From: an uncultured Bacteroidales bacterium
GTDB taxonomy: Bacteria > Bacteroidota > Bacteroidia > Bacteroidales > UBA932
Reading direction: 5' to 3'
Assembly (NCBI GenBank): GCA_944323245.1
Contig: CALURT010000014.1
Location: 1-64,000, forward strand
Length of the DNA stretch: 64,000 nt
The position numbers and the translations under genes were made by a program. Each line of letters opens with the position of its first letter. Positions within the stretch are counted from its first letter, which is position 1. The notes below the pieces were generated by a model, which did no database searches, had not been told where the DNA came from, and worked only from the letters and a program-made list of their open reading frames with translations. Shown one piece after another: positions 4,199-38,033 of the stretch.

Positions 4199-5986
4199 AT
4201 GAATTACAAATATCTGTCTTTAACAGCACTTTGTGCTGCCATGCTGTCTTTCGACTGCAGCATTTCCGAAGCCTGCACCAATATTCTTGTGACCAAAGGG
4301 GCAAGTGCGGACGGCTCCTGCATGATTTCCTACGCAGCGGATTCTCACCAGCTTTACGGAGAACTGTATTTCTCTCCGGCTGCAAACTGGGAAAAAGGGA
4401 CGATGCTCGACATCCATGAATGGGACACGGGAAGATACTTGGGACAGATCCCGCAGGTCCGCCACACCTACAAGACAGTCGGCAACATGAACGAACACCA
4501 GCTCATTATCGCCGAGACCACTTACGGAGGCAGGCCCGAGCTCTTCGATTCGACCGGCATCATGGACTACGGCTCGCTCATATACGTTGCCCTCCAGCGG
4601 GCGGAAACCGCAAGGGAAGCCATTGACGTAATCGTCGGTTTGGCAAACACATACGGATATTTTTCGAGCGGGGAATCATTCTCGATAGCCGATAAGGACG
4701 AAGTCTGGGTAATGGACCTCATCGGCAAGGGACACAAGGAAGTGGACGGGAAAAATGTCCGTAAAGGCATCGTCTGGGTTGCCCGCAGGGTCCCGGACGG
4801 ATATATCTGCGCTCATGCGAACCAGGCCCGTATCAGCACATTCCCGTTGGACGATCCTGAAAACTGTCTCTACGCTCCCGATGTGATTTCCTTTGCACGG
4901 GAAATGGGCTATTTCGACGGAGAAGACAGTGAATTCAGTTTCTGCGACGCATACGCTCCGTTGAACTTCAGCGGGATGAGAGGCTGCGAATCCCGTGCAT
5001 GGGCGGCATTCAACATACTCTGCGACGGCAAATTCACCTTCGAGGATGAAAACGGCAATACCGTCACGAAAGACGCTTACGACTATATCGACTACGCCAT
5101 GGGTTACGATGCCGGCAAGCGGTTTCCTCTCTTTGTAAAGCCGTCGGAAAAAATCACGATGAAGGATGTGGCCGACGTCATGAGAGACCATTTCGAAGGC
5201 ACTCCTATGGATATGACCACAGATATAGGCGCCGGAGGCAACGCCCTGCCGTACAGGTGGCGTCCGATGGATTTCGAATACGAGGGGAATCTTTATGTGA
5301 ACGAACGTGCGATTGCGACCCAGCAGACCGGATTCTGGTTTGTAGGGCAGTCGAGGGGATGGCTTCCGGACGTCATCGGTGGCCTTCTGTGGTTCGGAAC
5401 GGACGATGCCGCCACTTCATACCTGACTCCGATATATACCAACATTTCAGAAGTCCCTGACTGCTTTGCCGTCGGAAACGGCGACATGCTCACCTATTCC
5501 CCGACTTCGGCATTCTGGATGTGCAACCGCGTGGCAAATGCCTGCTACAAGATGTACAATGTGATGGCTCCGTTCGTGAGGGAACACATCGACGCTTTCG
5601 AAAACGGACAGATGGCGAAAATCCCTGAAATCGATGCCGCTGCCATGGAATTGTACGAAAAGGCGCTTGAAACGCCGAGAAAGCAGATCAGGCGCAATGA
5701 CAAGGCTGCAAAAACCGTCGACCCTTATGCCGATGTCAAAAAATTCCTGACGGAATATTCCGTGAATACCGCACAGGCGATGTTCGAAGACTGGGTACTG
5801 CTCGAACAGACCCTGCTTATAAAATATATGGACGGCAATGTCAAGGCCCAGAATCCCGACGGTTCGTTCGTCACCAACGGATACACGGACCGCATTCCTG
5901 ACGGCATTACCAATCCGGGATACACTGAAAAATGGAAAGCATCCGTAGTCAAGGACCACGGATGCGTATTGAAAGCTGCCGAATAA
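4199..5986 (+). CDS. secreted C69-family dipeptidase
   Basis: About 595 residues. A signal peptide ends just before CTNILVTKGASADGS; Cys at the start of this motif is the N-terminal nucleophile of C69 (Ntn-hydrolase, PepD-like) peptidases, exposed after leader cleavage. The rest follows the family, with SYAADSH, LIIAETTYGGRPEL and GYFSSGESFSIAD segments. It likely cleaves dipeptides in the periplasm. Two starts are possible (4178 and 4199); 4199 gives the better signal peptide. The gene is monocistronic and divergent from the small secreted protein gene. Family-typical length; nothing missing. Confidence 0.9.
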   Translation: MNYKYLSLTALCAAMLSFDCSISEACTNILVTKGASADGSCMISYAADSHQLYGELYFSPAANWEKGTMLDIHEWDTGRYLGQIPQVRHTYKTVGNMNEHQLIIAETTYGGRPELFDSTGIMDYGSLIYVALQRAETAREAIDVIVGLANTYGYFSSGESFSIADKDEVWVMDLIGKGHKEVDGKNVRKGIVWVARRVPDGYICAHANQARISTFPLDDPENCLYAPDVISFAREMGYFDGEDSEFSFCDAYAPLNFSGMRGCESRAWAAFNILCDGKFTFEDENGNTVTKDAYDYIDYAMGYDAGKRFPLFVKPSEKITMKDVADVMRDHFEGTPMDMTTDIGAGGNALPYRWRPMDFEYEGNLYVNERAIATQQTGFWFVGQSRGWLPDVIGGLLWFGTDDAATSYLTPIYTNISEVPDCFAVGNGDMLTYSPTSAFWMCNRVANACYKMYNVMAPFVREHIDAFENGQMAKIPEIDAAAMELYEKALETPRKQIRRNDKAAKTVDPYADVKKFLTEYSVNTAQAMFEDWVLLEQTLLIKYMDGNVKAQNPDGSFVTNGYTDRIPDGITNPGYTEKWKASVVKDHGCVLKAAE

Positions 5987-26468: not shown

Positions 26469-27944
26469 CTATCCGAGAAATGCTTTGTTTTCAAGAAGAA
26501 GACGCCTCAAATCCGCAGGGTCTATATCGCGCGGCGTCGTTCCTCCTTTCACTGCAAGCGAAGCCGCAAGACCGGCAGCCTGTCCCATGGCCATGCACGG
26601 CGGCATGACTCTGACAGCTCCTGCGGCATCGGATGTGGCGGAAATGGCCCTTCCTGCGACCAACAGATTTTCGACGTCAAGAGGCAGCAGACTGCGGTAA
26701 GGCAACCCGTACCAGCGACCGTTCTTCACTGTGATGTATTCGGTGGAATTGTCCGACAGCCGGCCATGTACATCCACGGAATTCGATGCCAACAGGATGG
26801 AATCCTCCGGAACCACCCCGTTGAGAAGGTCGTCCACCTGAAGGACATATTCGCCGGTCACATGACGGGACTCCCTGATTCCCACGGTGGAACCGGAACC
26901 CATGAGTGTGGCATGTTCACATCCCGGGACATATTTGTGGAAGAAATCCATAATCATCCTGATTTGACGGCGGCCTTCGATTTCTGCCATCGTAAGGCTT
27001 TCGGAATCACGTGCGTCAACACGGGCTATGCGGGTACAGTTCACGGCCCACTCGTCATCCCTGACACCTTTGTAGATATTGACCGACTTGCGGGCAATGT
27101 CCCATTCTCCGTTTTCAATGGCTTTTTCCACATGCCAGTGAAGCGCACGGTGACTTACACCGTCTATCTTGCGGAACGTGTGGAGCTTTGACTCGACGTC
27201 GGCTTCCAATTTGCGGGAATCGACATTATTGATATGGAAGAAAAGGGTAGCAGGCTGTACGCGTCCGGTCTGAGGATTTCCGAACTCGCACGGCGCACCG
27301 GCCCGTGCGGCAAAGTCACCGTTACCGGTGCAGTCCACCACGATTGAAGCCTTGACGGCTTCCAAGCCGCCGCGGGTGAGGACAACTGCTCCCGCAGTCT
27401 TCTTTCCGGACATTATTGGATTGACCAACGCCGTGTGCAGGAGAACCTTTACACCGGCTTCGGCACACATCTGATCCAAAACAAGCTTCATTACCTCCGC
27501 ATCTATTGGTGTGCAATGGTCGTGGCCGTCCGTAATCCATGCCGTATAAGGAGAGCACAGTCTTACCTTGCTCGGATGTATGGCACCGCCCAAAGCAACC
27601 ATCCGATCCACTATTTCTTCAAACATGCCGCGGATTATCATCTGCTCACCGGTAGTATCGTAACAAGTCATGAAAGGGGCTACCAAGCCGAGTGTGGCCA
27701 TTCCTCCCAAGGCTCCTCCCTGTTCCACTATCATCGTCCTTACTCCCTGCCTTGCGGCTGCAATTGCAGCGCATACTCCGGCAGGCCCTCCTCCCACGAC
27801 AAGAACTTGAGCGTCATAAGACTCTTTGATATCCATCGTCTTGATATCGGAACCTGAAATCGCGGAACATCCGCCTGGAATCGAAGCGACGGCTCCGCCT
27901 ATTGCCAACATGCCTGTTGCGGCTAAAAAATCTCTTCTGTTCAT
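26469..27944 (-). CDS. exported FAD-dependent oxidoreductase
   Basis: About 491 residues from the ATG at 27944. The N-terminus has a twin-arginine motif (NRRDFLAATG) followed by a hydrophobic stretch and a Cys at about residue 26, so the folded flavoprotein is probably exported by Tat and possibly lipidated. The Rossmann motif VLVVGGGPAGVCAAIAAARQG (from about residue 46) and the acidic EQGG end of beta-2 bind FAD; the C-terminal LLVAGRAISATSDAAGAVRV closes the FAD site. This is the FAD_oxidored (PF12831-like) family, often found in glycan loci, with substrates mostly unknown. The gene is 19 bases after an MBL gene in the SusCD operon. Confidence 0.85.
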   Translation of the reverse strand: MNRRDFLAATGMLAIGGAVASIPGGCSAISGSDIKTMDIKESYDAQVLVVGGGPAGVCAAIAAARQGVRTMIVEQGGALGGMATLGLVAPFMTCYDTTGEQMIIRGMFEEIVDRMVALGGAIHPSKVRLCSPYTAWITDGHDHCTPIDAEVMKLVLDQMCAEAGVKVLLHTALVNPIMSGKKTAGAVVLTRGGLEAVKASIVVDCTGNGDFAARAGAPCEFGNPQTGRVQPATLFFHINNVDSRKLEADVESKLHTFRKIDGVSHRALHWHVEKAIENGEWDIARKSVNIYKGVRDDEWAVNCTRIARVDARDSESLTMAEIEGRRQIRMIMDFFHKYVPGCEHATLMGSGSTVGIRESRHVTGEYVLQVDDLLNGVVPEDSILLASNSVDVHGRLSDNSTEYITVKNGRWYGLPYRSLLPLDVENLLVAGRAISATSDAAGAVRVMPPCMAMGQAAGLAASLAVKGGTTPRDIDPADLRRLLLENKAFLG

Positions 27945-27963
27945 TAATGTTATTTGTTTTACG

Positions 27964-29199
27964 TTATTTACATTCATACGGGCCGAACATTTCCACAATT
28001 CGATAACTCTGATCCGTATCGTCCAACTGATAGATCATATACTGCTTTCCTCCTGGGAAAACCCGCAGCACGAAATGCCCCTGCGTGGCCCTTATGCGGT
28101 CTTTATACGATTCTATTGCCGATCTGTTCTTAGGAGCAAGATTGGTGGTGAAAATTTCACATTCGGGATTGGAAGCAATGATACGCCCCAATGTGGCCCC
28201 GTTCGGCTGCACATCCCTCCATACATTTGCTATCACCACGTCCGGACGTGCCACATCCAGCAATTCCGCACTATTGGCAAGGGACGTACAATGATGGCTT
28301 GCCTTCATGGCCTCGACCTTCTTGATGACACGGGAAACAGGTTCCTCAATATCAAAATAAGGATATTCCGAGCGGTCCTTATACTGTATGTCTCCTCCGC
28401 TGAAATAATCGAAATCACCGTATGAAAGCAGAAAGACACAACTGAGGATATTCTCAGGTGGTAATGCCTTCTTGCCACCGTCTGCCAACATTACTGATTT
28501 TTCAGGAATCATGGTAAAACTTTCTTCCCCTTCTCCGGTCCAGACGTATCCGCCGGAAGCGATATTACGGAAAACGAAATCAGGATAAGAGGCAGGGTTG
28601 TGCGTCAATGTCACCTGACTGCAACCTGCCGGCATGAACGTCCCTGATTCCGTCCCGTTTTCCTCTTCCGTCCATTCAAGAAACGCCTTGGTATTCTCGA
28701 AAACCGCGGATTCCGCCAATATCACGGATGACGGACGCAGCGAATCCACGACGCGGAACAAAATCCTGTCTGCCGGGATCGACGAACCGACTTCTGCAAA
28801 CGAAGTCAGCTTGAACTTTCCCGAAGGATGGTCCGGCAATGAATCGGCATAGTCCCCAATATGATCGCTATGGAAATGCGTAATCATCATATAATCAAGC
28901 CGGCCGTCGCAAACAGCAGGGAGAAAATGCCTGACATAGTCGGAAATTACCTTTCCGCTCGATATGTCCGCCGACGGTTTAGGCTGCACCGGCATGTGTT
29001 TGTGTTCTTTCAGCAAGGAGCCGGCCGTATCCATCAGCAGGGTTGTTCCGTCAGGAAAGATGTGATATACACTTTCTCCGCGCCCCGTATTGATGAAATG
29101 TATGTCCATGTATCCCTCCTCCCATGCCGGAAGATTGTCGTCATCCGAACACGACAGCAGGAATACGGACATCAATATTGGAAATAATCTGACTTTCAT
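27964..29199 (-). CDS. metallo-beta-lactamase-fold lipoprotein 2
   Basis: 411 residues. Signal peptide with lipobox (VFLLSCSDD, Cys at 17), so probably an outer membrane lipoprotein. The fold is the ComEC/Rec2-like branch of the metallo-beta-lactamase superfamily: HFINTGRGES, LLMDTAG, and the metal motif THFHSDHIGD (His108, His110, Asp112, His113). A later GGDIQ carries the bridging Asp and KASHHCTS a further His pair. These hydrolases cleave phosphoesters or esters. It is a tandem paralogue of the next gene upstream, three bases away, and is followed by the FAD oxidoreductase gene. Confidence 0.83.
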   Translation of the reverse strand: MKVRLFPILMSVFLLSCSDDDNLPAWEEGYMDIHFINTGRGESVYHIFPDGTTLLMDTAGSLLKEHKHMPVQPKPSADISSGKVISDYVRHFLPAVCDGRLDYMMITHFHSDHIGDYADSLPDHPSGKFKLTSFAEVGSSIPADRILFRVVDSLRPSSVILAESAVFENTKAFLEWTEEENGTESGTFMPAGCSQVTLTHNPASYPDFVFRNIASGGYVWTGEGEESFTMIPEKSVMLADGGKKALPPENILSCVFLLSYGDFDYFSGGDIQYKDRSEYPYFDIEEPVSRVIKKVEAMKASHHCTSLANSAELLDVARPDVVIANVWRDVQPNGATLGRIIASNPECEIFTTNLAPKNRSAIESYKDRIRATQGHFVLRVFPGGKQYMIYQLDDTDQSYRIVEMFGPYECK

Positions 29200-29202
29200 T
29201 GT

Positions 29203-30573
29203 TTATCTGCATGTATAAGGACCGAAAACAGATGTCACATCCATGGACTCGTCATCATCTTCAAGAACATAGACATAGTACTCTGCACCGCCAGGTGCCA
29301 CGCGTATCACGTAATGGCCGCTTTCCGAACGGAACATTTCTGTAGCCGCAGACGGATAGGTGCTCCTCAATGAAGCATCGAGATTCGTGATGAATACATC
29401 GGCATCCGGAATACTGCCGGGAAGCCTGTTCATGGTATTGACATGAGGATGCTCGTCATTCCATGTCTGGAAAATCAGGACTTGGGGATCCATTGTACTA
29501 AGCAGGTACTCGCCGTTGGCATCGTGTGAACCATGATGGTTCGCCTTCATAGCCTCGACCTGTCCGACGGCATTGGCAATGGCGGTTTCCGTGATTTTCC
29601 ACGAATATGTTCCAGAACCGTTGTTACTTGCATCGCCTCCCGTATAATAGTCGAAGTCTCCGTATGACAATCTTATCGTGGCACTCAGGCTGTTTTCGCA
29701 CGGGCAGGCCTCTGTCGCCCCACCGTCCGAACTTGTATCAAATTCAGACTCGGGGATGAAGATATACGAAGTAGTCCCTGCACCATCTCCGGTCCAGACA
29801 TTGCCGTTCACGGAGACATTGCGGATGACAAAGTCCCCATAAGCCGCCGGATTGCGCTGGAGAGTGAACTGATCCGACGCTCCGGCCCGGAACACTTCCC
29901 TTACCAAGCCATTGGTCTGCTCATGGTATTGGTAGCACTTGATATAGTTCGCTACTATGTTCGAATTCGCCAGATCCTGATGCGCAGGAAAGTCATAGCC
30001 TCTGTCAATGACCTTGGTGACCGTTAAGTTGTCAAGAATTTCCGTCACGCCTCCGCGTGTATAGGTATTCGGGCCGGCAGAACCGTCCGGATTACTCCCG
30101 GAATAAGTTCCCACATGATCTGCATGCCAATGGGTCAGGAGAACATAATCAAGTTTGTCGTTTCCCGTCCATTCCATACACTTTTTGATATACCTCCTTA
30201 TATAGTACGCAGCCGTATGGAGACCGTCCGGCTTGAATCCGACAAAATCGTGTGAACTCGCCGTAGCGCTTGCCATGTCCACAAGCATCTGTGTTCCGTC
30301 CGGTAGGATGAAGAATGTACAGTCTCCCCGCCCGGTATTTATTGTATGGATGTCGAGACAGCCCTCCGACCATGGGTCAAGCACCTTGCCGACGGCAGGA
30401 TTGTCAGTGCCGTCCTGATTATCATTGTTGTCGTCTTCTGTTTCATCGTCTTCTGTCCCTCCCGGATTGTTAATCACAGGAAAAGCCGGAGAATCCGGTT
30501 CCGATGAGGAACAGGCTCCGGCAAAAACACAGGCAATGAGTACAATTAAAATTTCTATCGTTTTTCTTCTCAT
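29203..30573 (-). CDS. metallo-beta-lactamase-fold lipoprotein 1
   Basis: 456 residues. A signal peptide ends at CVFAGACSSS; a flexible acidic Asp/Glu/Asn linker (about 38-60) separates the lipid anchor from the enzyme, as in cell-surface lipoproteins. Metal motif THWHADHVGT (His148, His150, Asp152, His153), GGDAS with the bridging Asp and KANHHGSHD with the distal His residues are all present, so the dinuclear site looks complete. It shares with its neighbour the order HTINTGRGD / VDMA / YGDFDYYTGGD / PGGAEYYVYVL, evidence for tandem duplication. In the SusCD context it is a candidate surface phosphodiesterase or esterase. Confidence 0.83.
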   Translation of the reverse strand: MRRKTIEILIVLIACVFAGACSSSEPDSPAFPVINNPGGTEDDETEDDNNDNQDGTDNPAVGKVLDPWSEGCLDIHTINTGRGDCTFFILPDGTQMLVDMASATASSHDFVGFKPDGLHTAAYYIRRYIKKCMEWTGNDKLDYVLLTHWHADHVGTYSGSNPDGSAGPNTYTRGGVTEILDNLTVTKVIDRGYDFPAHQDLANSNIVANYIKCYQYHEQTNGLVREVFRAGASDQFTLQRNPAAYGDFVIRNVSVNGNVWTGDGAGTTSYIFIPESEFDTSSDGGATEACPCENSLSATIRLSYGDFDYYTGGDASNNGSGTYSWKITETAIANAVGQVEAMKANHHGSHDANGEYLLSTMDPQVLIFQTWNDEHPHVNTMNRLPGSIPDADVFITNLDASLRSTYPSAATEMFRSESGHYVIRVAPGGAEYYVYVLEDDDESMDVTSVFGPYTCR

Positions 30574-30589: not shown

Positions 30590-32284
30590 TCAATAGCCCT
30601 CATTTTGGGTAAGTTTGCCTCCTGACAATGCGACCTCCTCATAAGGAATAGGCCACAATTCGATTTTCGGGTCATACATGCGTTCACCGTACTGTCTGCA
30701 GTATCCGGCTGCCGCCAAAGCAGAGAAGTCAGCAAAACCGTCCTCGTCTATTTCAGGGGTCATAGCCCAGAACCAGTTGCCGTCATTCTCCATGGCAGTC
30801 AGCGTGGCTTCATCGTTCGGCAGACCGTAATAATTGTGGCTGAATGCCTTCTCGAACCAGCCCCAGCGCATGAGGTCGAAATATCGCCTGCCTTCCCAAG
30901 CGAACTCCACTCGGCGCTCGTTCCGCAATATGCGGCGGAGTTCAGTCTGGTCCGTAGTGGTAACTGCAGGATAACGATTGGTCTGCGTGTAATCGACCTT
31001 GTAGGCCCTGGCACGCACCATGTTTATGTATTGCAGAGTCAGGTCGTCTATCGTGTTCAACTCGATGCAGGCTTCCGCATACATCAGCAACACGTCGGCG
31101 TAACGCATGATGATATACGGATTGTCATTCTGAAGGACGGTGTACCATAACTCCTGAGCACCTTTACGTATGGTACAGCCGTTCCTCGGGGCATAACGGT
31201 CTACGACGAGATTTTCCTTGTTGGATGTCATCTGCCCGTTCGACAGGACCTGCCTTGCCGACGGAAGAGGATTGAACACCGTCCCGTGGAGCTCCGTTCC
31301 CGGCTCTACAAAAGTGTATGTACAACGCGGGTCGCGGTTTGCATAAGGGTTATGCGGATCGAAAAGCGGAGACTCGTCGATAGGGAGACCGTCGGTGCAG
31401 GTATATGCGGCCAACAATTCCCACGACGGCTGTGCGACATTGTTGCCGCCTGCCGTACGCATCACCCAGCTTTTGATAGCTTCGTACTGACCAAGCTCCG
31501 AGGAATTGGCTATGGCGAATATCATTTCGCAGTTCATGCTCTTGTCGAGAAACAGCTCTCCATAGTCCTCATAAAGGCTGTAATGGTTCAAGTCTATGCA
31601 GGACTTGGCTGCTTCCTTGGCCGTAGCATAATCATGCTGGGCAAGAGCAATACGGGCCTTCAAGGCATAGGCCGCCCCTTTCGTCACTCTGTAGACTCCG
31701 GTACTGTTATTCTCTACAGGAAGATATGTAGCCGCAAAATCGAAATCCTCATAAATATGCCGGAGGATTTCATTCTTGTCGGTACGACCCATCTGCCGGG
31801 CCTGTTCCACGGTAATGTATGTCGTATAGTACGGAACGTCTCCGAAAAGCGTAATCAGCCGGGAATAACAGAACGCCCTAAAGAAAAGGGCCTCGGCCCT
31901 GAGCATGTTGATCTCCTCGGCGGTGGCGGACCCTTCGAGTTTGTCAAGAGCCTCGTCTATCATGTTGGCACGGACCACACCTTTGTAAGTGTAATTCCAC
32001 ATGGAAGATGCGGCACTCCATTCTCCGTCTACGGTTCCGCTGGCAACATCATAAATGGCATCCCTTTGTGCCCAGTCATCGGTCCTTCTGTCTGTAAAAT
32101 ATTCCGCTTCAAGGAAATAAAGATAGTTCCTATAGAAGTCGTTCAATGACAACTGAACATCATCCGTATCGGAATACCAGTTGTCGCTCGATGCTTCGTC
32201 GAGCGGATTCAGATCGAGCGAAACACATGAAGACAACTGCAGGGCAGCCAATAGAATCAGTATGTTTATACAATTTTTCATCAC
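30590..32284 (-). CDS. SusD-family outer membrane lipoprotein
   Basis: 564 residues with a lipobox (LQLSSCVSLDL, Cys near 20). Typical SusD features: N-terminal LDLNPLDEASSDNWYSDTDDVQ, TPR helices with ALFFRAFCYSRLITLFGDVPYY, and the C-terminal RNERRVEFAWEGRRYFDLMRWG. SusD lids close the SusC transporter and bind the ligand at the cell surface. One base separates it from susC, the invariable pair arrangement. The ligand is unknown; the lack of glycosidases nearby and the presence of phosphoester-type genes suggest it is not an ordinary polysaccharide. Confidence 0.95.
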   Translation of the reverse strand: MMKNCINILILLAALQLSSCVSLDLNPLDEASSDNWYSDTDDVQLSLNDFYRNYLYFLEAEYFTDRRTDDWAQRDAIYDVASGTVDGEWSAASSMWNYTYKGVVRANMIDEALDKLEGSATAEEINMLRAEALFFRAFCYSRLITLFGDVPYYTTYITVEQARQMGRTDKNEILRHIYEDFDFAATYLPVENNSTGVYRVTKGAAYALKARIALAQHDYATAKEAAKSCIDLNHYSLYEDYGELFLDKSMNCEMIFAIANSSELGQYEAIKSWVMRTAGGNNVAQPSWELLAAYTCTDGLPIDESPLFDPHNPYANRDPRCTYTFVEPGTELHGTVFNPLPSARQVLSNGQMTSNKENLVVDRYAPRNGCTIRKGAQELWYTVLQNDNPYIIMRYADVLLMYAEACIELNTIDDLTLQYINMVRARAYKVDYTQTNRYPAVTTTDQTELRRILRNERRVEFAWEGRRYFDLMRWGWFEKAFSHNYYGLPNDEATLTAMENDGNWFWAMTPEIDEDGFADFSALAAAGYCRQYGERMYDPKIELWPIPYEEVALSGGKLTQNEGY

Positions 32285-32285
32285 A

Positions 32286-35200
32286 TCAGAATTTAATGTC
32301 CAACCCCAAAGTATAAGTAGTGGTGATATATGTGTTTACGCTGGCCTCGGGATCCCATCCCTTAGGATAATTGTCAATACAGAACGGATCATCCACATTG
32401 ATATATATGCCTAATGATTCTATTCCTGCCTTCTTTATCCATTTCGATGGAAAAGTGTAGCCGAGATTGATATTCTTGCAGCGGAAGAAAGCTCCGTTGA
32501 AAAGCCAGAAATCAGACATGGCGTAATTGTTCGTTTCTATTGATGTCAGACGCGGATACCTTGCTGCCGAATTCTGTTCCGCAGTATTGTACAGACTCCA
32601 ATAGTTGCCAAGCAGGTTGGCTGACGGAGAAAGCCACGAACCTTCGAACGGCTGTATCATGGAGGTGTTCATGCGGGCCAGTTGTTTGCCGACTCCGCTG
32701 AATGTCATGGAGAAGGAAATCCCTTTCCAACCCAGATTGAAGTAACCTCCATAGATGTACTTAGGCTGCGAACTTCCGAGAATCACCCTGTCATAATCAG
32801 CGGTAATCTGATTGTCTGCAGCTCCGTCGGCTCCGGACACGTCGACATACTTTATGTCTCCCGGTTTGGTATTGGTGATGAGAAGGGCGCTGTTTGCCAC
32901 CTCGTCAGCGGTCTGGAAAAGGCCGTTTGACCTATAACCGTACCATGCAAGATACTCGCTTCCTTCACGGATAATCTGTTCTCCGTCGAACACGGTACCA
33001 TTCAGATTGCCCATCACGGAACAGTAGTTGGAAAGATTGACTCCTATGCTGTAGGAAAAGTCGCCATTCCTGTCGGACCAGCCCAATTTGATTTCCCAGC
33101 CCTGGGTGCTCATCTCTCCTGCATTCTGCTCAGGATCGGCAAATCCGGTAAACGAAGGGATCGCCGTTTCCAGCAACATGCCCACCGTTTTCTTGTAGTA
33201 GTAATCACCTGTGAATGTCAACCTGTTATCGAAAAAGTTGGCATCGATACCTGCATCTACATTGTAAGTTGTCTCCCATGTGATGTCGCGGACTGCATAT
33301 TCAACCTGTGCGGCAGCCATCTGTGAGACTATGCCTGACGTACCGAACATAGGCGTGGACTCGAAATTGATACTGGTCTGATAAGGGTAGTTGCCAATTC
33401 GTTCGTTTCCCAAAGAACCTACGGAAGCCCTTACTTTCAGGAATGACAACCAATTAACGTCCTTCAGGAATCCCTCTTCGGAAGCGACCCAGCCGACGGA
33501 AGCTGACGGGAAAAATCCCCAGCGGTAATCCCTGTGGAAACGGGATGAACCGTCGAATCGGGCATTGAACTGCACATAGTACCGGGAATCGTAGTTGTAC
33601 ATGGCACGAGCAAAATATGAACGGTAAGCATTCTCATAAGCCGTACCGCTGACACCGAGGAAGTTCTCATTGGCGCGGTCGAGATAAGGATAATTGTCAA
33701 GCACCATCTGGTCGGTACTGCCGCTCATGTATTCATTTCTGTAGTAATATTCCTCATAACCGGCCATTACATTGAGGTTGTGCTTCATTGCAAAGGATTT
33801 GGCATAGGTTGCAACCAAATTACCCTGCAAAGTCACTGTCTCGCGACGGGCTTCGGTAAGTGACGTGGTCGAGAAATTGTTTATGTATCCGATAAGCAGG
33901 TTAGGATCATAGGCATCGTATATCGGAATGGCTTTCTTGAAATCCTTGCTTTGGTTGAATCCCAATGACGGAAGGAAACTTGCCTCGAAAGAAAGTCCAT
34001 CAATCGGACGGAATTCGAGGGACACCTTGCCTGAAAACACAGTCTTGTTGGTAGTGGTGTTGCCTCCCTCCTTCAGGATTGCATACGTGTTGGCTCCGCT
34101 TTGTCCTTCAGCTATACGTCCGTCAGGATATTCCGCAAGGTAGATAGCCGGATACATATAGGCATGTTTGATGACATTGCTTGCCTGCGTGTTGTTGAGC
34201 TGCGACCTGTTGAGTGACATGTCGATATTGGCGGACCATTTCGGTGAGAATCTGATATTGTTGCGGAGACGCGCCGTGATACGCTCATAGTTGCGTCCTT
34301 TGAACAGGGCATCGCTGTTCTCATACGAAACAGAAGCACGGGTCTTGACGACCTTATTGCCGTATGTCAGCACAAGGGAATGCTTATGTCTTAACGCAAA
34401 ATCCTTGAGCATCAAATCTTTCCAGTCCGTCAAAGGATAGGTTATCGGGTCTATTTCATGATTCATGTAATAGTTGTCGATGAAATCCTGAGTGTAGGTA
34501 TTGTATTCGCCTCCGGCAGGATTTCCGGCATCATTCCACTGCATTTCGTTGTACATACGCATATAGTCGAGCGCACCGACTGATTCCGGAAGCTCGGAAA
34601 GGGTGTGGAAAGAAACTTCGCCGCTGTAATTGATGACAGTCTCGCCTTCGCTTGCCGACTTGGTAGTGATGAGAATGACGCCGGCTGCTGCCCTTGCTCC
34701 ATATATAGATGCAGAAGCCGCATCCTTGAGTACGGTAATCTGGTCTATATCGAGGCTGTTCACATCATCGATGCTTGATGCAGGCATGCCGTCAATGAGA
34801 ATCAGAGGACTGTTGTCGCTCATGGTGGTGACACCGCGTATCTGCAATGTGGCACTTGTTCCGGGCATGCTTCCTGTTCTGGAAACATTCAACCCGGGTA
34901 TCATACCCTGAAGTCTCTGTGAAAGCAATGTGGTGGATGAGGTCTGAAGAGACTCCCCGTCAAGGATACCGACAGACCCGGTCAGATCCTTTTTCTTCAC
35001 CGAACCGTAACCGATAACCACCGTGGCCTCAAGTTCAAGGCTTTCTTCCTCCATCGTAACGTCAAGACGAGGCCCGCCGTTCCAAGTGACCGTGACCGGT
35101 ATCATGCCGAGGCAAGAAAATTCAATGACGCTGTTCGGAGTGAGGCCTTCGAGCCGGTACATTCCTTCTGCGTCTGTGATTGCGAAAACAGATGTGTTTC

Positions 35201-35375
35201 CTTGTACCAAAGCGGCAACCCCCGCCAAGGGGGCTCCGCTCTGATCGGAAACAACACCTTCGACAACTGAATTGTCAGACGACGGAGTCTGTGCATACAT
35301 CTCCACATCCGAAGCCAGCCATGCCGAAATCATGCAGACAACGGCAAGCACCCATTTGTACAAATGTGTTGTCAT
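32286..35375 (-). CDS. SusC-family TonB-dependent outer membrane transporter
   Basis: 1029 residues. Signal peptide (cleavage after MYAQ), an N-terminal carboxypeptidase-like domain (VVEGVVSDQSGAPLAGVAAL, about 37-115), the SusC TonB-box region VVIGYGSVKKKDLTGSV, a plug with LQIRGVTTMSDNSPLILIDG, and a 22-strand barrel. It imports a ligand through the outer membrane with energy from TonB/ExbBD and works with the adjacent SusD. It follows the BACON lipoprotein gene by 31 bases. Full length; no frameshift seen. Confidence 0.96.
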   Translation of the reverse strand: MTTHLYKWVLAVVCMISAWLASDVEMYAQTPSSDNSVVEGVVSDQSGAPLAGVAALVQGNTSVFAITDAEGMYRLEGLTPNSVIEFSCLGMIPVTVTWNGGPRLDVTMEEESLELEATVVIGYGSVKKKDLTGSVGILDGESLQTSSTTLLSQRLQGMIPGLNVSRTGSMPGTSATLQIRGVTTMSDNSPLILIDGMPASSIDDVNSLDIDQITVLKDAASASIYGARAAAGVILITTKSASEGETVINYSGEVSFHTLSELPESVGALDYMRMYNEMQWNDAGNPAGGEYNTYTQDFIDNYYMNHEIDPITYPLTDWKDLMLKDFALRHKHSLVLTYGNKVVKTRASVSYENSDALFKGRNYERITARLRNNIRFSPKWSANIDMSLNRSQLNNTQASNVIKHAYMYPAIYLAEYPDGRIAEGQSGANTYAILKEGGNTTTNKTVFSGKVSLEFRPIDGLSFEASFLPSLGFNQSKDFKKAIPIYDAYDPNLLIGYINNFSTTSLTEARRETVTLQGNLVATYAKSFAMKHNLNVMAGYEEYYYRNEYMSGSTDQMVLDNYPYLDRANENFLGVSGTAYENAYRSYFARAMYNYDSRYYVQFNARFDGSSRFHRDYRWGFFPSASVGWVASEEGFLKDVNWLSFLKVRASVGSLGNERIGNYPYQTSINFESTPMFGTSGIVSQMAAAQVEYAVRDITWETTYNVDAGIDANFFDNRLTFTGDYYYKKTVGMLLETAIPSFTGFADPEQNAGEMSTQGWEIKLGWSDRNGDFSYSIGVNLSNYCSVMGNLNGTVFDGEQIIREGSEYLAWYGYRSNGLFQTADEVANSALLITNTKPGDIKYVDVSGADGAADNQITADYDRVILGSSQPKYIYGGYFNLGWKGISFSMTFSGVGKQLARMNTSMIQPFEGSWLSPSANLLGNYWSLYNTAEQNSAARYPRLTSIETNNYAMSDFWLFNGAFFRCKNINLGYTFPSKWIKKAGIESLGIYINVDDPFCIDNYPKGWDPEASVNTYITTTYTLGLDIKF

Positions 35376-35406: not shown

Positions 35407-36547
35407 TCATTCAGCTACGGAGACTATTTCCAAGACAATAGGATGACCGCTCTCTTCATGTGCCGTACCGTCTTCAAGATACTTCACTGTCGGAGAGAAA
35501 CGGCTCTCAAGACTGTTGTTGATGCAATCGCCTTTCTGTGTAGGGGTTTTGCTGAACGGGCAAAGACAGCCGGCTGCGCTCATGCGAATTTTCAGTTCTT
35601 CTGTATCTTCGGACACTGTGAACTGTTTCTCGGAAAGTTGGTATTTTTTGTTTACAAGATAGTTATACGTCACTTCCATAGAACCCGAAGAGGCTTCTCC
35701 GGTCGAAAAGAGCTGTGTCCATGTGTCTGTGGTCTTTTGCGGTTCTCCGACAGGAAGATATTCTCCTCCGTCACATGAGTATTCAAGCATCCACTTGTCT
35801 GTCGTAGTATTTCCGATACCGAAACTGAAAGTGAACTTGATGGTACTTCCTGCAGGTATGACCTTGTCAGGAGTAACGGTTACAAGCCAGTAATCACCGG
35901 CAAGGCCTCCTTTCACATAGAGGTCTCCGTTGCCTCCCACTGCCCTTGACGTGCCTTTATAAGCGGATGACCCGTCTGCAAGCACCATGACATTGGTCTG
36001 GTCAGCGTAATAGAATTCGATTTTGCCATTGCCCTCGGATGCGTTGGCGTATGCTCCGCCGTTTCCCGTAGCCGGAGTGGCTTCTTCAGTAGTGAATGTG
36101 CCTTCGTTTACGGTCACGTCATCTCCGAGATTCCATTGGGCGAATACTCCCGTACCGAGATATTCTACGTCCGGATCAGGTTCTTGATCTGGATTTTCTG
36201 ATTCGACTCCTGCCTGATTGACTGTAAGACGCTGAGGAGTGACATTGTCGCCGATAATGTTTACTGTACCTGTTCGGCTGGTTGTCGATGTATTTGCTTC
36301 AACTGAAACTGAATAGATTCGTGCGTCACCTTCTGATGAGGTTTCCGAGACTGTTATCCACGAATCCTGAGGATTGATACGATAATGGACGTTGGATGTA
36401 ACTGTAAGATTGAACGTCTGTTCTGTAGCATCGATGTTTATCGATTCCGGATCGATTGTAAGATAGCCTTCTTGAGTTTCATTAGTGCATGCTACCCCCC
36501 CCCCAAATGGCGAAAATCGCTGATAATGTGATGATTAAACGTCTCAT
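35407..36547 (-). pseudogene. BACON-domain surface lipoprotein, frame broken at a G10 tract
   Basis: From the ATG at 36547 the protein starts MRRLIITLSAIFAIWGG and then meets ten consecutive G (36495-36504, minus strand). With ten G the frame ends after 21 residues. With nine or twelve G it continues VACTNETQEG into a 379/380-residue lipoprotein without a stop. After the tract come a BACON domain (about residues 30-108; QTFNLTVTSN, SWITVSE, EANTSTTSRTG, LTVNQAG) and a ~240-residue C-terminal domain with YADQTNVMVLADG, DKWMLEYSCDGGEY and VTYNYLVNKKY that I do not recognise. It is placed where PULs encode surface ligand-binding proteins, upstream of susC. The lipobox is weak (GVAC). Either a phase-variable gene seen in the OFF state, or a homopolymer sequencing error. 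Confidence 0.82.
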
Positions 36548-36589: not shown

Positions 36590-37639
36590 TTATTTGGTGT
36601 TGTCGAAAGTGAAGGCATCCCATGGCAGATGTGCATCCTTCCCATTATCTAGAACATCATTCACGTGCGTCAGCATCGGGAAACGGGAAATATCCACTTT
36701 TCCGGTCTCTGCCCTTTTGTATATTGCCTTCGCTACTCTGCGTGCAACGACAAGCGATTCAAGCGTTACTCCGGCAAGGATTTCCATCGCTTCTTTGTAT
36801 GTCTTGCCTTCGCCGAGCAATATTCCCACCTTGCGGGTACGTCCACCGTAGACAGTGACATAGAGGTCTCCGATACCTATGATTTTGCAGTCTTCCGATG
36901 CCTTGAACATTTCAAGCAACTGCATCATTTCCCGTGCAGCCTGATAAAATGCTCCGGCCTGGGAATTATAATGAAGTCCGGCATTTGCTCCGAGGTCACG
37001 GTTTACCAATCCTATGGTCATGGCAACTCCAAGAGCATATGCATTCTTCAATGCGACAGCCGCTTCCAGTCCAATGACATCGTTTGTCAGCGAAATGTGA
37101 TAATAATCAGTGGCAAGGGCTGCTTTCATCATTTTCAGGTCAGCAGTGTTTTTCCCGCAAAAGGCCACTTCGGTATTGTCATGAAATACCAATTCATAAG
37201 AAGTACACGGACCTCCGATAGCGCAGACTTCACGTTCGATACCTTTCTTTTTCAGTTCAGCCTGCCAGTAATCCGGATAAGAGATCAAATCCCCGTTCTC
37301 AAGATTAATCAAACCTTTGGTAACGGACAAGACCGGAATTGACGGGGCAAGATTCATCAGGATTTCATTCAGGAACCAATCCACACCGAAAGAGGAGACT
37401 CCGCAAATAACAAAATCCGCTCCTTCTACAGCTGTTTTCCATTCTTCAAAATAGTAGTACCTGACTCCTTTCGGAAAAGGACGGTCAAATTTCGGATGCT
37501 GGTTCTTGGTCTTGCATCCGTCAATGATGTCACAGTCGAGATGCGTGCCCACCAGCCTTACCTCGTGCCCGTTTTCGGCAGCGGGGAAAGCAAGTGCGGA
37601 GCCCATCATTCCGGCTCCGATAATGGTTATTTTCTTCAT
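36590..37639 (-). CDS. gpsA: NAD(P)-dependent glycerol-3-phosphate dehydrogenase
   Basis: 349 residues. N-terminal Rossmann fold with IGAGMMGSALAFPAAENGHEV, the SVTKGL segment, catalytic Lys in AVALKNAYALGVA, and GIGDLYVTVYGGRTRKVG of the helical C-terminal domain, all as in GpsA. The reaction interconverts glycerol-3-phosphate and dihydroxyacetone phosphate in the cytoplasm. The N-terminal part (VGTHLDCDIIDGC) is unlike the common GpsA, so this may be a catabolic paralogue rather than the lipid-synthesis enzyme. It is the first intact gene of the minus-strand unit, 42 bases before the BACON lipoprotein, with a GlpT-like transporter at the far end. Confidence 0.87.
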   Translation of the reverse strand: MKKITIIGAGMMGSALAFPAAENGHEVRLVGTHLDCDIIDGCKTKNQHPKFDRPFPKGVRYYYFEEWKTAVEGADFVICGVSSFGVDWFLNEILMNLAPSIPVLSVTKGLINLENGDLISYPDYWQAELKKKGIEREVCAIGGPCTSYELVFHDNTEVAFCGKNTADLKMMKAALATDYYHISLTNDVIGLEAAVALKNAYALGVAMTIGLVNRDLGANAGLHYNSQAGAFYQAAREMMQLLEMFKASEDCKIIGIGDLYVTVYGGRTRKVGILLGEGKTYKEAMEILAGVTLESLVVARRVAKAIYKRAETGKVDISRFPMLTHVNDVLDNGKDAHLPWDAFTFDNTK

Positions 37640-37912: not shown

Positions 37913-38033
37913 TTCGACTTTATTGTTTCATTGATATTACACATATTCAAGATTATTGCTCTTGCAGAAAATACACTTTTTCTTGAATAATCAACACACC
38001 TTGTACCGGGACTGCCGCCGGCTTCGGGCCGCC

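Follow-up and report, generated by a model that had tools for sequence, protein, structure and literature searches.

Does a run of ten G in the signal-peptide codons of a lipoprotein gene act as an ON/OFF switch for a nutrient importer in an uncultured Bacteroidales bacterium of the UBA932 lineage? The run lies on the minus strand of the window, by which we mean the whole stretch of DNA analysed (64,000 nucleotides, contig CALURT010000014.1). An earlier note, made from the letters of this DNA, had read the run as a phase-variation switch of a SusC-linked lipoprotein, and the proposal is supported by an in-frame nine-G tract in the one orthologue found (L043) and by the occurrence of eight or nine G in a related SusC family. 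We consider it likely, judging from sequence, that the locus is a translational poly-G contingency locus with slipped-strand phase variation. The observations from which this reading starts are the anatomy of the site, its frame logic, the tract in the orthologue, a bimodal spectrum of run lengths and a length polymorphism in the SusC family.

Frame logic of the tract and its operon

The assembled minus strand reads MRRLIITLSAIFAIW between the ATG at 36547 and exactly ten G (36504-36495), and the frame opened by this ATG (36547-36545) closes at a TAA (36484-36482) to give the product MRRLIITLSAIFAIWGGGSMH, 21 aa in length. With nine G the same ATG opens a frame of 379 aa, with the N-terminus MRRLIITLSAIFAIWGGVAC-TNETQE..., that continues without any further defect over 1.1 kb to a stop at 35409-35407, and twelve G restore the same frame as nine. 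The count of ten consecutive G in the signal-peptide region, the stop after 21 residues, the open frame of about 380 residues at nine or twelve G and the lack of another defect over more than 1 kb, all claimed in the earlier note, were thus recovered. With eleven G the sole long frame begins at a TTG two bases 5' of the tract and the signal peptide is absent, and no start codon was found that brings the G10 allele into frame at its N-terminus, the first in-frame start being GTG 36117, from which both the signal peptide and the BACON domain would be lost. Inspection of MRRLIITLSAIFAIWGGVAC against the lipobox pattern revealed a positively charged n-region, a hydrophobic h-region and a lipobox before the Cys. 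The tract occupies signal-peptide codons near the start of the ORF, where unit changes alter the reading frame, and its ten G exceed the PhasomeIt cut-off for hypermutable tracts (poly-G/C of at least 7; PMC6321876). The assembled sequence has the OFF length, so that on the consensus of this one assembly the sequenced cells may be OFF; nine G could be the true length in most cells.

Table 1. Features of the switched lipoprotein gene and its operon in the window.
Feature	Position	Strand	Basis or remark
G10 tract, proposed switch	36495..36504	-	frame open at 9 or 12 G, stopped early at 10 or 11 G
ATG start codon of the switched ORF	36545..36547	-	sequence
TAA closing the 21-residue peptide of the G10 allele	36482..36484	-	sequence
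TGC, Cys codon of the lipobox (G-G-V-A-C) at 9 G	36487..36489	-	lipobox agreement read from sequence
BACON lipoprotein gene, 379 aa at 9 G	35407..36547	-	frame reading and profile match
BACON domain, Ig-like; only well-modelled part	36208..36462	-	profile match and AlphaFold2 model
SusC-like TonB-dependent transporter	32286..35375	-	starts 31 nt after the lipoprotein stop
SusD-like lipoprotein	30590..32284	-	profile match
MBL-fold lipoprotein, same operon	29203..30573	-	profile match and synteny
Second MBL-like lipoprotein	27964..29199	-	likeness to neighbour, weak ComEC match, synteny
FAD-dependent oxidoreductase, final gene of the conserved order	26469..27998	-	profile match and synteny
gpsA (glycerol-3-phosphate dehydrogenase), upstream neighbour	36590..37639	-	conserved in L043

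The BACON domain expected in the open frame was found in the mature part of the protein (PF19190, 3e-10; PF13004, 6e-9), and the claimed SusC linkage holds, with susC (32286-35375) and susD (30590-32284) directly downstream; the other operon genes around the lipoprotein are intact. An AlphaFold2 model built from two sequences was reliable for the BACON domain only, and the C-terminal part has no recognisable fold in this model, in the PDB or in NCBIfam, the non-BACON part having given no convincing PDB match and no NCBIfam match at all. Downstream of susD, the pair of MBL-like lipoproteins (27964-30573), whose order is kept in the L043 genome, matches the ComEC model weakly, with the similarity lying in the ComEC MBL domain, and may hint that the SusCD pair takes up something unusual, perhaps nucleic acid.

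Run lengths and other tracts in the same genome

The length of the tract alone proves nothing, since G8 is not rare in dinucleotide shuffles of the window (mean 1.96; 27 of 100 shuffles contained at least the observed match count). Under a first-order model the genome should contain about 43 exact G8 runs and about 11 exact G9 runs, and an argument from composition-only excess was dropped because dinucleotide models expect as many G8-G9 runs or more. Only the bimodal spectrum, not tract length, is informative. In 189 kb of sequence from this genome, a draft of 41 contigs with 50% GC, G/C runs of 3, 4, 5 and 6 numbered 2857, 548, 51 and 2, whilst exact run lengths across the whole genome gave two G7, 14 G8, four G9 and five G10; runs of 6-7 are thus nearly absent, followed by 23 runs of 8-10. 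The departure from the first-order model arises because G runs are avoided. Among the Gly codons of ten window genes GGG is used least, at 13%, and GGGGGG was used for none of the 36 Gly-Gly pairs in these genes. A dip at 6-7 and then a rise at 8-10 is the look of mutable, selectively kept tracts. The second mode in the L043 genome comprises 13 runs of nine and one of ten, with none of exactly eight, and the poly-G/C tracts treated as phase-variable in Campylobacter also peak at 9 and 10 (PMC6321876).

All 23 tracts of at least eight G were inspected. Four lie in or just behind signal peptides, namely those of the window lipoprotein, a TIG-domain lipoprotein (L015, G8, in frame), a TonB receptor (L020, G8, in frame) and a NAGPA-domain lipoprotein (L019:2626-3657; C25:22825-23856 in this genome) with an in-frame G8 just behind the lipobox. 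The last of these stands about 120 nt upstream of a susC, in the same arrangement as the window gene, and is apparently ON. In a prophage-like cluster (L006) two paralogous genes each carry a tract at the N-terminus, and another tract cuts a hybrid two-component regulator into its kinase and its response-regulator/AraC parts (L001). Three more are in frame deep inside genes (L012, L013, L014) and two are at gene ends; the remaining tracts, about half of the 23, are intergenic and without known effect.

The divided regulator (L001:265-3613; C5:85264-88612) carries nine C and has a kinase part of 853 aa, one C fewer giving a continuous 1115 aa, and this polysaccharide-locus type regulator may itself be frame-switched. 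In the prophage-like cluster the tracts are G10 and G9 (L006:3090-3099 and 4961-4969; C16:36089-36098 and 37960-37968), both out of frame as assembled, in paralogues of about 420 codons, whilst an upstream paralogue (502-1824) is intact and has no tract; their neighbours include holin-like and Rz-like genes, recognised by eye, and a DNA methyltransferase. The pattern is reminiscent of Campylobacter phages, whose receptor-binding proteins are switched by poly-G. A D12-class DNA adenine methyltransferase gene has a G8 (L006:6660-6667; C16:39659-39666) just 5' of it, and this tract, if it affects expression of the methyltransferase, could be a switch of the phasevarion type. On the opposite strand, three intergenic poly-C tracts, TTTG-C8 (L017:2762-2769), TTTG-C9 (L004:725-733) and TTTGT-C8 (L018:2699-2706), follow closely on a motif that resembles the -7 promoter element of Bacteroidetes (TAnnTTTG), the first of them about 24 nt 5' of the start of a TonB-dependent outer-membrane protein, and poly-C at a transcription start could tune expression at these three sites.

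The tract in relatives and the competing explanations

The search for poly-G at the same site in relatives, a check named alongside the original claim, yielded one orthologue in a scan of 84,980 species genomes, L043, in a MAG labelled 'uncultured Alistipes sp.', with the seven-gene order from gpsA to the FAD oxidoreductase in common with the window. No further orthologue of the lipoprotein was detected in 300 genomes of the window's genus or among 150 relatives of the L043 genome, and the site was absent from viral-contig records. The L043 signal peptide, MKRLFYATTLLSAILLGGGC, is encoded with a nine-G run in frame and the ORF is complete, that is, ON. Protein identity to the window lipoprotein is 60%, and 66 of 105 four-fold degenerate sites differ (63%), so that silent positions are near saturation and the tract has been kept at the site beyond neutral expectation, as judged from a single orthologue for this gene. 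The distance from the G run to the Cys codon is 1 nt in L043 and 5 nt in the window gene, which means that conservation extends to having some long G run at the lipobox and not to each base. A glycine before the lipobox Cys is normal, yet GGG is the least used of the Gly codons in the ten window genes. The tract lengths known for the lipoprotein itself are G10 in the window and G9 in this one distant species. Near the operon in L043, two nine-base G/C runs (L043:1482-1490 and 1573-1581) lie in opposite orientation 82 nt apart; similarly close pairs of G/C runs occur in L076 and L077, in apparently non-coding DNA.

The genus has more than 300 species and belongs to an order rich in SusC/SusD genes; at the level of a guess, it may be Candidatus Cryptobacteroides. 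Across the 300 genus genomes the pattern ATGAA, 18-48 nt, G9 gave 70 matches by hand count, compared with 32 for a reversed control. A selection of these matches comprises G9-G12 tracts in SusC-like signal peptides (e.g. L084, L090-L092, L096-L100) and in lipoprotein signal peptides (L088, L089, L095), some in frame and the majority out. With its fixed minimum of nine G, the pattern could show genes that are ON at eight G only in their OFF state. To remove this bias, a SusC protein from genome G280 was used as a tract-independent query and the signal peptides of the best 30 matches were read. At the site ..FL[ML]GGAA..AQP, nine species had exactly eight G and an open frame and two, G280 and G289, had nine G and a broken frame, these cross-species counts not being independent events since the tract-bearing genes share ancestry; each tract length compared comes from one assembly per species. 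The remaining matches among the best 30 were without the tract, with other codons or residues, and one contig fragment lacked the start. The SusC of G280 and that of G192 share 97% protein identity, with 13% of four-fold sites differing, and have nine and eight G respectively, whilst between G280 and the other tract-bearing SusC genes 52-63% of four-fold sites differ and the G run is retained. The in-frame reading yields a mature A-Q start, as expected from the Bacteroidetes Q-rule (PMC5837995). In this wider set of relatives orthologous SusC signal peptides therefore carry G8 (ON) or G9 (OFF) by species, direct evidence at the sequence level for a one-base length polymorphism with a predicted ON/OFF consequence at an orthologous SusC site in the window's genus. 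Many families of the order contain runs of nine G; none of the 30 tract loci listed for other families was in a SusC or lipoprotein signal peptide. Of the ATG-to-G9 tracts, 15 of 67 in the genus and 5 of 73 across the order passed a crude signal-peptide filter, a contrast that is suggestive, not strong.

Homopolymers are the commonest site of indel errors, and the tenth G might be an error of sequencing or assembly, with a real gene of nine G that is simply expressed; the draft state of the genome (41 contigs) and the nine G of the orthologue fit this reading, which we regard as unlikely because it accounts for this one length only and leaves unexplained both the persistence of long G runs at the same signal-peptide sites despite silent divergence and the further SusC genes found out of frame in independent assemblies. 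Transcriptional or ribosomal slippage, which a homopolymeric run can bring about, might also yield some full-length lipoprotein from the G10 allele, both frames being produced and the tract tuning the level rather than acting as a switch. The tracts in frame deep inside genes (L012, L013, L014) would suit such tuning, whereas the alternation of eight and nine G between near-identical genes is the prediction of DNA slippage, and we hold tuning to be distinctly improbable. A fixed frameshift in a young pseudogene of this strain, with the tract merely a mutation hot spot, is very improbable, since beyond the assembled allele encoding 21 residues only there is no second defect in 1.1 kb, the neighbouring operon genes are intact and the tract is retained in L043.

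Two other candidates were rejected. An invertible promoter upstream was set aside because only five imperfect inverted-repeat pairs were found, with 191-1687 nt between the arms, and no close inverted repeats of at least 12 nt flank the lipoprotein start, no pair closely bracketing the start region. Loss of mismatch repair was discarded as the cause of the long G runs, mutS1 scoring above the cut-off here and in tract-rich and tract-poor relatives alike, with only a fragment in the incomplete genome G201; as mutS1 is intact in the window's genome, loss of MutS does not account for slippage, and a high slippage rate has no special explanation.

Proposed switch, precedents and meaning

Under slipped-strand phase variation, mispairing at replication would add or remove a single G in the signal-peptide tract. 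Nine or twelve G would place the ATG in frame and yield an outer-membrane BACON lipoprotein belonging to a SusC/SusD uptake operon, and with ten or eleven G translation would end after about 20 codons. We infer that slippage would occur in vivo at phase-variation rates and be reversible within a clone. The OFF state plausibly lowers susC/susD expression by polarity, because some 1.1 kb of the transcript 5' of susC would then go untranslated. Because many tracts sit in SusC-like and lipoprotein signal peptides, such a set across importers would make populations mosaic for the importers displayed, and the benefit would presumably be evasion of phages or immunity, or diversified feeding. On balance we favour the broader reading of a genus-wide poly-G phasome in a large lineage of Bacteroidales-type bacteria, acting on SusC and lipoprotein importers, and here also on a hybrid two-component regulator, in which one-base slippage instead of inversion would diversify uptake and receptor display.

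A functional precedent is provided by HmbR and HpuAB, the poly-G phase-variable haemoglobin receptors of Neisseria meningitidis (PMC3786947, PMC3352162), in which the poly-G also lies inside the ORF and a single-base change toggles a nutrient receptor of the TonB system. The phylum and gene family are different, the tract here being in the signal peptide or lipobox and the targets being SusC-like transporters and operon lipoproteins, and the likeness on our side is one of sequence. The Campylobacter phasome analysed with PhasomeIt (PMC6321876) likewise has many G tracts per genome with frame-dependent ON/OFF states and the same peak at 9-10, whereas those genomes are AT-rich and the targets mostly surface structures, compared with 50% GC, about half of the tracts intergenic and mutS1 present here. 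In Bacteroides fragilis, phase variation of SusC/SusD is described as invertase-driven (Nakayama-Imaohji et al. 2009, as cited in PMC11868660); the outer-membrane targets are alike and a similar benefit is presumed, but site-specific recombination operates there and one-base slippage in coding sequence would operate here. For Bacteroides, a 2025 review gives only invertase-driven examples, and it states that an abundance of phase-variable loci in one genome seems to be confined to pathogens (PMC11868660). The earlier note called homopolymer switches uncommon in Bacteroidota, which agrees with this literature, in which the described Bacteroidales switches are invertible promoters. In 5.4 million open papers we found no description of SusC or lipoproteins being switched by poly-G in Bacteroidales, most subscription papers and preprints lying outside the search.

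Phase variation in gut Bacteroidales has so far been described in terms of invertible promoters, and the window's bacterium and its relatives probably rely on a switch otherwise known chiefly from pathogens. If importers across a large lineage of commensal type are indeed switched by poly-G slippage, tools that search for inversion only would miss it, some SusC genes annotated as 'pseudogenes' in draft assemblies may be alleles in the OFF state, and tract lengths would have to be counted whenever strains are compared for glycan use or sensitivity to phages.
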